Of a DNA stretch of 20,089 nucleotides, positions 3,972-18,198 are shown in pieces. The DNA is from a virus, in IMG/VR virus record IMGVR_UViG_3300021425_000246, positions 1-20,089 of that record, one strand, 5' to 3'. A program made the position numbers and the translations under genes. Within the stretch, counting starts at the first letter, position 1, and the number at the start of each line of letters is the position of its first letter. The notes under the pieces are model-generated. The model was not told the DNA's origin and ran no database searches. It saw only the letters and a program-made list of their open reading frames with translations.

Positions 3972-4006
3972 TTCCACTATTCAGTCATAATATATAAATA
4001 GTGGAA
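3972..4006 (+). repeat. 10-bp inverted repeat straddling a late promoter
   Basis: TTCCACTATT (3972-3981) is the exact reverse complement of AATAGTGGAA (3997-4006), with a 15-base loop that contains most of the TATAAATA box. The right arm abuts the Shine-Dalgarno AAGGAG (4006-4011) of the gene at 4019. RNA read through from upstream would fold here; RNA begun at the late promoter would lack the hairpin. Confidence 0.6.
3993..4000 (+). promoter_or_regulatory. T4-type late promoter TATAAATA
   Basis: The exact T4 late consensus octamer lies 19 bases before the gene at 4019. By analogy with T4 the transcript would start at about 4006-4007, right at the Shine-Dalgarno. It is recognised in T4 by the gp55 sigma factor with the gp33/gp45 co-activators; equivalents are not in this window. 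Confidence 0.7.
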
Positions 4007-4018
4007 AGGAGAAAGACT

Positions 4019-4354: not shown

Positions 4355-4797
4355 TGTTAGTATATTATCATGCTAGGACTCCTCTGTATATTGAGGAGTT
4401 CGCCGATTGGTGTTGTGAAGAACTAGGCATAGACAAACTCCGCGGATGGATTGACTTCCGTTGGAATTACGGTGAACTGGAAGACAATGCGTTTGGTTTA
4501 TGTACAGGTGACTCTCGTGAAGTTTCCATACAAGTTGCCACTAGGCAGTTTGGCGAATCAATATCCTACGAAGATAAACTCAAAACTGTTGCACATGAAC
4601 TAGTGCATGCTCGTCAGTATCTCCGAAGAGAACTCACTAGTCACCCTGACGAATGGGATCTACCTGTTTCCCGTTGGAAGGGCAGGACTGTTCGATACGG
4701 CAAAGGTATCTACGCTGAGAACGATACTCCTTGGGAAAGAGAGGCAAGACGTCTCGAAGAAAAACTATTTAAGAAGTGGATGGAGGAAGAAGTATAA
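4354..4797 (+). CDS. SprT-like zinc metallopeptidase-fold protein
   Basis: This encodes 147 residues. The zinc-binding signature is H81-E-L-V-H85-A-R-Q-Y, the HExxH motif with a following helix, preceded by a helix containing EDKLKTVA, as in SprT-like and other minimal zincin domains of phages. The N-terminal half (a helix with EEFADWCCEELG and a short sheet including GLCTGDSREVSIQV) matches the beta strands preceding the active helix. The C-terminal part is charged and helical. Phage SprT-like proteins are common in marine myoviruses; proteolytic activity is presumed from the motif and the substrates are unknown. The third zinc ligand is not obvious. It shares its late promoter with the secreted protein upstream. 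Confidence 0.75.
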   Translation: MLVYYHARTPLYIEEFADWCCEELGIDKLRGWIDFRWNYGELEDNAFGLCTGDSREVSIQVATRQFGESISYEDKLKTVAHELVHARQYLRRELTSHPDEWDLPVSRWKGRTVRYGKGIYAENDTPWEREARRLEEKLFKKWMEEEV

Positions 4798-8531: not shown

Positions 8532-9659
8532 ATGATTAAGTCGTTCAATGACTATTTGGTAGAAGAAGCGAAGGTCGCTTATTTTACTTTCGGTCGTATG
8601 AATCCTCCAACCTCTGGTCACCAGAAGTTGTTGGACATGCTCGCAAAAAATGCAGGCAGAAATCCATATTTCGTTTTCCTATCACAGTCGCAAGACGCTA
8701 AGAAAAATCCACTCGACTACAGCGCGAAGGTGAAGCATGTTCGTAAGATGTTTCCTCGTCACGCTCGCCGAGTTTTAATTAATAAGAAAGTCCGCACTGC
8801 CTTTGACGCAGCATCATATCTGTATGAGCAAGGTTTTAAAAACTTGGTCATGGTTGTTGGTTCTGACCGTGTTCGAGAGTTTACGACATTGCTAGAAAAG
8901 TATAATGGTGTGAAAGGTAAGCATGGATTTTACAACTTCAAGAACATCCAAGTAGTTTCTGCTGGAGCACGTGATCCTGACGCCGAAGGTGTAGAGGGTA
9001 TGTCTGCTTCTAAACTCCGTGCATTCGCAGCGGATAATGACTTCGCAGGTTTCTCTCAGGGTCTCGGATCTATGAGTAACAAGGACGCGAAGAAGTTATT
9101 CGTTGATGTGCGCAACGGTATGGGCATCAAGGAAGAAACTGTATTCAAACGTCACGTAGAACTTGACCCTGTGTCAGAGACTCGAGAGAAGTTTGTGAAG
9201 GGTGAGTTGTTTGAAGTTGGTGATCAGATTGTTATTAAAGAATCTGAAGAAGTCGGTACTATTACCCATCTTGGTAGCAACTATGTTATCGTTCAATTGA
9301 GCGAAGATAAAGTTGTTCGCAAATGGCTAGATGCCATTGAAAAGTTGGATGAATATGTGTCCAGCGCAGAGTTTGTTCCGTCGCCCACTGGCGGCAAGAA
9401 ATATGCGACGCTCAACATGCGCGAAGAACCTAAAACTCCTCAAGACCCTGACATTAAAGATCGCAAGGGTTCTCAACCAAAAGCATACCATAAAGGTTTA
9501 AATAAGTCGATGAAACGTCGACGCGATGCTCAGTTTAAGAGGCAGACTAAAATGTCAGACTCTGATCCGAAGGCATACAAACCTGCTCCTGGCGACAAAA
9601 CAACAAAGACAAAACCGTCGAAGTATACGAAAGCGTTTTCTAAGATGTATGGTGACTAA
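8532..9659 (+). CDS. cytidylyltransferase-like nucleotidyltransferase with capsid-targeting-like N-terminus
   Basis: This encodes 375 residues. After a 12-residue leader (MIKSFNDYLVEE, then Ala) that resembles a T4 capsid-targeting sequence, the HxGH-type nucleotidyltransferase motif appears as GRMNPPTSGH (residues 21-30, H30 in SGH), with the second signature of the superfamily, an ISSTxIR-like M157-S-A-S-K-L-R163. Such enzymes transfer NMP to a phosphate acceptor (NMN, phosphopantetheine, CTP-dependent sugars or glycerol phosphate); the substrate here cannot be told. Residues about 205-270 look like a KOW/SH3-type small beta barrel (VGDQIVIKESEEVGTITHLG). The C-terminal 100 residues are basic and low-complexity. 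Marine T4-like phages commonly encode this protein. GGGAGACGAC precedes the ATG. Confidence 0.85.
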   Translation: MIKSFNDYLVEEAKVAYFTFGRMNPPTSGHQKLLDMLAKNAGRNPYFVFLSQSQDAKKNPLDYSAKVKHVRKMFPRHARRVLINKKVRTAFDAASYLYEQGFKNLVMVVGSDRVREFTTLLEKYNGVKGKHGFYNFKNIQVVSAGARDPDAEGVEGMSASKLRAFAADNDFAGFSQGLGSMSNKDAKKLFVDVRNGMGIKEETVFKRHVELDPVSETREKFVKGELFEVGDQIVIKESEEVGTITHLGSNYVIVQLSEDKVVRKWLDAIEKLDEYVSSAEFVPSPTGGKKYATLNMREEPKTPQDPDIKDRKGSQPKAYHKGLNKSMKRRRDAQFKRQTKMSDSDPKAYKPAPGDKTTKTKPSKYTKAFSKMYGD

Positions 9660-13796: not shown

Positions 13797-14099
13797 ATGG
13801 AACCTGAAAAGAAAGTAGTACAACTAGAACTTGAAGTTGATACTCGAACCGTTGACAGCGGCAAGAATCCATATCAAAACTGGATACACTTGGCACGAGC
13901 AGTAGATTCATGGCGGATCTTTCCTCGTCTGTTTTTATCAGTATACATATTCTTATTGTATAAAACAGTGCTTTGGTATATGGATCTACCAGAACCGAGT
14001 ATGGAACAGTCAGGTTTGATTTCTGTTATTGTAGGTGCAGGTGCAGCGTGGTTTGGTTTGTACGCTGGAACTCACAAAGACTCGTCAGATAATAAGTAA
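13797..14099 (+). CDS. holin-like small membrane protein (tentative)
   Basis: This encodes 100 residues with a strong AGGAGGGG ribosome-binding site. The N-terminal 35 residues are hydrophilic and acidic. Two hydrophobic segments follow: about residues 43-61 (WRIFPRLFLSVYIFLLYKTV) and about 73-90 (SGLISVIVGAGAAWFGLYAG), connected by a short loop, and a charged tail. The Gly-Ala-Trp-Phe-Gly-Leu-Tyr block is a recurring pattern in small membrane proteins of marine T4-like phages. Two helices and small size fit a class II or III holin, which would make lesions in the inner membrane for lysis, but sequence alone cannot prove it. The gene lies between the coiled-coil membrane protein and a late-promoter-driven gene. 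Confidence 0.65.
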   Translation: MEPEKKVVQLELEVDTRTVDSGKNPYQNWIHLARAVDSWRIFPRLFLSVYIFLLYKTVLWYMDLPEPSMEQSGLISVIVGAGAAWFGLYAGTHKDSSDNK

Positions 14100-14108
14100 A
14101 ATCTAAAC

Positions 14109-14186
14109 TCCTCTGCGATATAAATAACAGTACTATAATCTAAAATGGTACTGTCAAATGAAGTTTTCAGACTATATCGCAGAGGA
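14109..14186 (+). repeat. 14-bp inverted repeat plus nested hairpin around a late promoter and start codon
   Basis: The arms at 14109-14122 and 14173-14186 are perfect reverse complements over 14 bases (TCCTCTGCGATATA and its complement). Nested inside is a second hairpin, ACAGTAC (14127-14133) with GTACTGT (14148-14154), extendable by U-G and two A-U pairs. The right outer arm lies in codons 6-10 of the gene at 14158; the left arm overlaps the late promoter. Read-through RNA would fold the start region; RNA started at about 14132 would lack both left arms. Confidence 0.7.
14119..14126 (+). promoter_or_regulatory. T4-type late promoter TATAAATA
   Basis: The exact octamer is 31 bases upstream of the ATG at 14158; the expected start is at about 14132. 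A TATAAT also occurs at 14134-14139. The octamer forms part of the left arm of the inverted repeat. Confidence 0.7.
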
Positions 14187-14391
14187 CGTGTCCAAAGGTC
14201 TCGCCAAGAAAGCAGACAAATCAGGTATCTCCGTCGGAACATTGCGAAAAGTTTATAATCGCGGTGTCGCCGCATGGAAGACAGGTCATCGACCAGGAAC
14301 CACTCCTTCGCAGTGGGGTATGGCAAGAGTAAACGCATTCATTGTTAAAAAGAAAAAGGGTGGACTGAATCACGACAAGGATCTTGCGTGA
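14158..14391 (+). CDS. DUF5824-like protein with capsid-targeting-like N-terminus
   Basis: This encodes 77 residues. The first 9 residues, MKFSDYIAE (then Asp), closely resemble the T4 internal-protein leader ending in the prohead-protease site IAE. The rest has the signature I associate with DUF5824: GISVGTLRKVYNRGVAAWKT, then a GHRPGTTPSQWGMARVNAF block, then Lys-rich KKKKGGLNHDKDL. This motif occurs in many T4-like marine phages, sometimes fused to other domains; its function is unknown, though the basic, helical fold suggests nucleic-acid contact. It has its own late promoter, no strong ribosome-binding site, and a hairpin over its start region. The stop overlaps the next gene as GTGA. 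Confidence 0.8.
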   Translation: MKFSDYIAEDVSKGLAKKADKSGISVGTLRKVYNRGVAAWKTGHRPGTTPSQWGMARVNAFIVKKKKGGLNHDKDLA

Positions 14392-17468: not shown

Positions 17469-17861
17469 ATGCCTATCCTTTTAGTATTATTGTTGTTTGG
17501 TTCTATTGCTGGCGGTGGTTACTTTTATTACACCGATACGCAAAATACCATACGACAACTTGAAGCAAATAATGCAACTCTGAAGATTGCTGTAGAGGAT
17601 AATCAGCGGACTATAGATACTATGAGAGAGAACGCTGAAAAGACAGCGGAGTTGACAGCAAAGTTGGAAGCGGATTTAGAGAAGTCCGAAGAAAGCAGGA
17701 ACAAATTAATTGAGGTGTTTGGTAATCACGACCTCACGAGACTTGCGTTGAAAAAACCAGGATTGATTGAAAAGAGAGTGAATAATGGAACTAAGAAAGC
17801 ATTCGACGGGATTGAAACTATTAGTGGCAAGCCTGCTCCTGCTGACGACAGCGGCGTGTAG
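17469..17861 (+). CDS. candidate inner-membrane spanin (Rz-like)
   Basis: This encodes 130 residues. Residues 2-21 are a membrane helix (PILLVLLLFGSIAGGGYFYY), followed by a long coiled coil, about residues 25-85 (NTIRQLEANNATLKIAVEDN through KLEADLEKSEESRNKLIEVF). Then comes a soluble tail. This is the layout of Rz-type i-spanins, which anchor in the inner membrane and cross the periplasm. The candidate outer-membrane lipoprotein gene starts inside it at 17785 in another frame, a 77-base overlap much like Rz/Rz1. In the lysis model the pair fuses the inner and outer membranes after murein breakdown. GGAG precedes the ATG. Sequence similarity to lambda Rz is not claimed; the call rests on topology and gene arrangement. 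Confidence 0.65.
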   Translation: MPILLVLLLFGSIAGGGYFYYTDTQNTIRQLEANNATLKIAVEDNQRTIDTMRENAEKTAELTAKLEADLEKSEESRNKLIEVFGNHDLTRLALKKPGLIEKRVNNGTKKAFDGIETISGKPAPADDSGV

Positions 17862-18198
17862 CACAACTCCTAAAGAAGTTGTTGTCACTCGAACAGTAGT
17901 ACAGTATCCTGAGATCCCACTAAGGAACTCTCCTCGTCCAATCAATATGATTGACGTCAACTGGTATACCGTTACCACTGACAACATTCACGAGTTTGAG
18001 GAAAGGTTTGAAAACGCAAACGGCGATTTAGTTTTCTTTGCGTTGTCTGTTCCGCACTATGAGAATCTGTCACTAAACCTTGCAGATATTCGTAGATACA
18101 TTGAACAGCAGAAGGCAATTATCATTTATTATGAAGAACAGATTACAGCGCAAACAAAGAATATAAATAACGATACTAACTCTACTGATCAGGAGTAA
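17785..18198 (+). CDS. candidate outer-membrane spanin lipoprotein (Rz1-like arrangement)
   Basis: This encodes 137 residues, starting inside the i-spanin candidate. The N-terminus MELRKHSTGLKLLVASLLLL then TTAAC is a lipoprotein signal peptide with lipid-modified cysteine at residue 25 (lipobox T-A-A-C; Thr at -3 is not ideal). The mature part has no proline-rich stretch, unlike lambda Rz1, but has conserved-looking blocks (MIDVNWYTVTTDNIHEFEER, VFFALSVPHYENLSLNLADI) and a helix ending IIIYYEEQI, which recurs in marine T4-like phage hypothetical proteins. Embedded overlap, lipid anchor and neighbour all fit an o-spanin. It is longer than typical Rz1. The late octamer at 18162 is inside its 3' end. 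Confidence 0.65.
   Translation: MELRKHSTGLKLLVASLLLLTTAACSTTPKEVVVTRTVVQYPEIPLRNSPRPINMIDVNWYTVTTDNIHEFEERFENANGDLVFFALSVPHYENLSLNLADIRRYIEQQKAIIIYYEEQITAQTKNINNDTNSTDQE
18162..18169 (+). promoter_or_regulatory. T4-type late promoter TATAAATA
   Basis: The exact octamer lies in the 3' end of the lipoprotein gene, 34 bases before the ATG at 18204, which has AGGAG 9 bases upstream. The expected transcript start is at about 18175. I see no strong inverted repeat here. Confidence 0.65.

Follow-up and report, generated by a model that had tools for sequence, protein, structure and literature searches.

Positions 14109 to 14186 of the 20,089-nucleotide viral sequence analysed here (the window) raise the question of whether a late promoter and a start codon set among nested inverted repeats could form an RNA switch like the one at the lysozyme gene e of phage T4. 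The gene that would be regulated (14158..14391, plus strand) is the first in a tightly packed run of genes, and its 77-aa product corresponds to the C-terminal half of DUF5824 (PF19141), matching profile positions 64-125 of 127 with 67.7 bits against a cut-off of 25. The N-terminus, MKFSDYIAED (14158..14187, plus strand), resembles the T4 capsid-targeting sequence, for which an L/I-x-E cleavage motif rule has been described (PMC9026906). Both MKFSDYIAE/D in the window and MKTYQEFIAE/A in T4 IPIII end in such a motif (IAE here), and head targeting of the 77-aa product is a reasonable inference from its sequence. The gene upstream (13797..14099, plus strand; phrog_10198) encodes a small membrane-like protein and is a possible source of read-through RNA. 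DUF5824 is seemingly split in the window: the N-terminal half ends the cytidylyltransferase (8532-9659), to which profile positions 1-53 match weakly (20.4 bits, below the cut-off), and the C-terminal half lies 4.5 kb away. In L413, both halves form one uninterrupted reading frame at the corresponding place. The window also carries an overlapping Rz/Rz1-like spanin pair (17469-17861 and 17785-18198; phrog_739 and phrog_812).

The original prediction described a perfect 14-bp inverted repeat (14109-14122 and 14173-14186) and an inner hairpin of 7-10 bp (14127-14136 and 14145-14154), together enclosing the start codon at 14158. This description holds: the outer arms lie exactly there and are 100% complementary, the inner arms form 10 pairs (nine Watson-Crick and one U-G), and the repeats flank the ATG. 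On the plus strand, the outer left arm (TCCTCTGCGATATA), which pairs in all four versions of the element that we found, shares its last four bases with the first four of the late-promoter box, and the outer right arm (TATATCGCAGAGGA) falls within the coding region, at codons 6-10 (YIAED). The predicted late RNA begins in the middle of the inner left arm (ACAGTACTAT, plus strand). The inner right arm (ATGGTACTGT, plus strand) covers positions -13 to -4 relative to the start codon, the usual place of a Shine-Dalgarno sequence, and no such sequence is present in these bases (14145-14154) before the AUG.

RNA read through from upstream (14090-14200) folds with -33.7 kcal/mol (z -6.58), and none of 200 shuffled sequences was equally stable. 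In this fold, the AUG sits in the internal loop between the inner and outer stems, outside any stable helix. An intrinsic terminator was considered and rejected, given that no U run follows the stem (CGTGTCC from 14187 onward) and that the site is absent from a terminator scan. Rfam matched no known RNA family anywhere in the window. As computation, the fold and its conservation are solid.

The late promoter is a T4-type box, TATAAATA, at 14119-14126 (plus strand), which overlaps the outer left arm as had been proposed. This motif occurs five times in the window against 0.8 expected, an over-representation that marks it as a genuine late-promoter motif in this sequence; genes follow four of the boxes, and the fifth (7821) is intragenic. 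When the four leaders are compared, the other three late genes have purine-rich, Shine-Dalgarno-like stretches and the gene at 14158 does not. In T4, the TATAAATA box occupies positions -13 to -6, with transcription starting 13 nt downstream of its first base (PMC1524935), and the first RNA base is therefore predicted at 14132. A second late promoter, at 3993, lies in a 10-bp inverted repeat (3972-4011) adjoining a Shine-Dalgarno sequence; this repeat is kept in G003 and differs in sequence in G002 and G001, and its fold is no better than that of shuffled sequences (z -0.9). On the minus strand of G001, a late box (149041-149048) is part of a tight palindrome, and a late RNA starting as predicted would have almost no leader, since the ATG comes 14 nt after the start of the box.

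An RNA that begins at 14132 was said to lack both left arms. The whole outer left arm is indeed gone, but only half of the inner one is, and the remaining bases (14132-14136) could form a weak 5-bp hairpin. Compared with the -33.7 kcal/mol of the read-through RNA, the predicted late RNA (14132-14200) folds with -8.2 kcal/mol (z +0.6) and has no unusual structure. Across the four versions, read-through RNA requires 17.1-21.0 kcal/mol to free positions -20 to +19 and late RNA 6.4-9.4 kcal/mol, so that the opening cost drops by 10-13 kcal/mol from the predicted late start; with that start shifted by 2 nt, the late-RNA cost rises to as much as 12.1 kcal/mol. The probability that the bases at -13 to -4 are unpaired likewise increases from 0.01-0.13 to 0.29-0.41. 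The anticipated opening of the start region thus applies to the cost of freeing the ribosome footprint but not to the AUG, which is about half unpaired either way (0.49-0.68 when read through from upstream, 0.44-0.78 from the late start). Because the pairing at -13 to -4 shifts while the AUG itself changes little, we place the predicted block on ribosome loading, through clamping of both sides of the start, with neither the AUG nor a Shine-Dalgarno sequence being masked.

We think that this element is probably a late-promoter-embedded RNA switch working like that of T4 gene e, with the protein translated mainly from its own late transcript. In this model, RNA reading through from upstream would hold both left arms and fold into the two nested stems, the inner covering the bases just 5´ of the start codon and the outer clamping codons 6-10, and for these two reasons loading of the 30S ribosome would be hindered. 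Late polymerase acting at TATAAATA would instead produce an RNA from about 14132, inside the inner left arm. Since the outer left arm would be absent from this RNA and the inner one halved, the start region would be much more open and the protein could be made. We infer the position of the RNA start, the read-through RNA, its poor translation and the benefit of such timing to a head-targeted protein.

The same architecture is common to eight sequences (the window, L002, L003, L004, L005, L086, L087 and L088), which represent four distinct versions. Pairing of the outer stem is intact in 56 of 56 cells across these versions: 12 of the 14 pairs are invariant, another alternates between A-U and G-U, and the last is U-A in L087 but C-G in the three other versions. 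The change in L087 is compensatory, with GAG replaced by GAA in the right arm, a synonymous glutamate codon, and C by T in the noncoding left arm; with the left arms of the window and L087 exchanged, the fold is 2.7-4.2 kcal/mol less stable. The inner stem has one pair that becomes U-G and two end pairs that are each broken in a single version, and the base that breaks an end pair in L005 contributes to a small alternative stem beside the AUG. Two A to G changes, one in the outer stem of L004, L005 and L086 and one in the inner stem of L087, create G-U pairs that would form in the sense RNA only, which argues for pairing in the mRNA over pairing in DNA or antisense RNA. When the arms were slid as controls, no double change was seen and pairing was 22-52%, against 97.9% for the actual arms. 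The covariation of the arms that had been proposed as a check is therefore borne out as conserved pairing with one compensatory change, but not as a significant statistic, which 147 of 500 shuffles reach with only four versions to compare.

Conservation extends beyond the arms. The noncoding leader of roughly 60 nt (14100..14157, plus strand) is nearly identical among relatives and more conserved than its surroundings. It is near-invariant from the stop codon of the upstream gene, which forms its 5´ edge, to the AUG, although two versions have an unrelated gene upstream; the upstream protein of L005, for instance, shows no resemblance to the window's. When the element was sought with wider patterns, only the same lineage and unrelated sequences came up, and L292, L357 and L358 were rejected as relatives, their short shared strings being due to chance. 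We also rejected the idea that the hairpin is general to the 77-aa gene: more distant DUF5824 relatives have neither the promoter nor the hairpin, and outside the lineage the gene follows the cytidylyltransferase or lies elsewhere and the repeat is absent. Among the sequences searched, the putative switch was found only in one narrow lineage.

How closely does this element follow gene e? The T4 leader hairpin contains two internal late promoters, and its formation in long transcripts cuts lysozyme synthesis 100-fold (PMC3014915). Folded as a positive control, gene e gave the same signature as the window (-19.6, z -2.67). As in T4, the late box of the window lies in the 5´ strand of the structure, read-through RNA is stably folded across the start, and late RNA is without the 5´ strand (PMC3014915); the loss of structure from the predicted start, the lower opening cost of late RNA and, in the few sequences available, the conserved pairing together give good in silico support to the proposed gene e-like logic. 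One defining feature is different. In gene e, the Shine-Dalgarno sequence (AGGAGG) and the AUG are both hidden in a single leader stem, whereas the window element has no Shine-Dalgarno sequence to hide, its AUG is in an internal loop, and two nested stems, the outer one paired with codons 6-10, hold those codons and the bases at -13 to -4 instead. The predicted switch would thus be a variation of the gene e trick in which neither a Shine-Dalgarno sequence nor the AUG is in a helix.

Other leaders offer further points of comparison. The T4 genes soc, 49, segB and I-TevI and the Aeh1 gene mobE also have structures at the translation start on long transcripts (PMC2988022), and for I-TevI and the like the placement of the late promoter lets late RNA escape the structure (PMC2988022). 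These leaders belong to homing endonuclease and other genes, with consensus Shine-Dalgarno sequences in the endonuclease cases, unlike the window gene, which encodes a DUF5824 fragment, probably head-targeted, of a marine T4-like phage. In phage C48C1 (Kyanoviridae, L359), a late box at 80999 is embedded within a long stem, as in the window, with folding energies of -40.3 kcal/mol and, for the late RNA, -14.1 kcal/mol. Unlike the window element, this stem hides a clear Shine-Dalgarno sequence (AAGGAGAGAG), that of an unrelated 89-aa gene, and it resembles gene e more closely than the window element does.

A small scan of phage genomes (T4, C48C1, HTVC008M, Mosig, Melnitz-1, the 151.7-kb relative G001 and the window) showed that late promoters are enriched for such hairpins. 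Among the 103 TATAAATA boxes at most 60 nt from a start codon, 14 have 5´ sequence that pairs with the start region better than nearly all shuffles do (at most 2 of 100 do as well), compared with 4 of 120 other gene starts; some boxes of the window and G001 are the same sites, so the count of 14 is not fully independent. The top interaction score belongs to the window's element as present in G001. T4 genes e, 25 and 26 are among the recovered sites, the last two being presumably these genes given their N-terminal sequences and position. RNA structures have been reported at all three (PMC2988022). A second score, the cost of opening -15 to +15 after the 45 nt upstream were shuffled, failed to rank the window site, unlike the interaction score, because the inner stem is mostly downstream of the shuffled part. 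In Melnitz-1 (75082; L360), a terminator-like hairpin (AATCCCTTGT...ACAAGGGATTTTTT) carries a late promoter in its loop, just 5´ of the gene that precedes the tail lysozyme gene. The broader proposal, that the window holds a clamp switch without a hidden Shine-Dalgarno sequence or AUG whose outer stem uses capsid-targeting codons, and that marine T4-like phages commonly time their genes by placing a late promoter in such a hairpin, is one we would put forward only tentatively, as a whole that may well not hold.

Early silence followed by late expression is just one possible use of the switch, since the upstream RNA might stem from the late promoter at 4793. The same RNA structure could then serve to keep the gene off long late transcripts, such as those from 4793, with the dose of protein set by its own promoter. 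Two late promoters, at 3993 and 4793, are indeed located upstream on this strand, the genes between them and 14158 are packed on one strand, and no early promoter is evident, sigma-70-like sites upstream numbering 18 against 19.2 expected. However, the early and middle promoters of such phages may not match a sigma-70-like scan, and the terminator-like sites in between (12 against 6.1 expected, both strands) could limit read-through from 4793. We regard this use as unlikely.

Two further readings seem to us quite improbable, and about equally so. In one, RNase III-type processing at the long stem, or an effect of this stem on mRNA stability, parts the upstream message from the late operon. A perfect 14-bp stem together with a second stem is a plausible double-strand substrate, and it is located between two genes, but it extends ten codons into the gene, so that RNase III-type cutting would destroy the message; the position of the promoter at half an arm would be a coincidence, and the known T4 uses of such a layout are translational (PMC3014915). 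In the other, the repeat arose by chance and persists merely through close relatedness. No other perfect inverted repeat of the window (span up to 120) is as long as the outer one, and 1146 first-order Markov shuffles of the full window yielded 11 repeats of at least 14 bp, a frequency of about 0.01 per window that was counted without demanding overlap with a late promoter or start codon, so that some 1% of shuffled windows contain an equally long repeat; the four versions also show few changes, and formal covariation is not significant. Against chance stand the coincidence of the repeat with both the late promoter and the start codon, outer arms in which every change retains pairing and one is compensatory, and a noncoding leader that is better conserved than the sequence around it. 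A DNA-level element, with the repeat binding a protein or forming a cruciform to influence the late promoter that it overlaps, is hardly credible, as the arms are 50 nt apart and two substitutions break the DNA symmetry yet keep G-U pairs in the sense RNA.

T4-type timing hairpins have already been documented for T4 and close relatives, and a survey of gene e found several marine cyanophages without an apparent copy of that gene (PMC3014915). The translational switch that we favour would place a predicted timing hairpin in an uncultured marine lineage, at another gene, whose product is probably targeted to the head and whose targeting-peptide codons themselves supply half of the stem. This suggests that phages reinvent the device where a late promoter sits in an operon that is read through from upstream.
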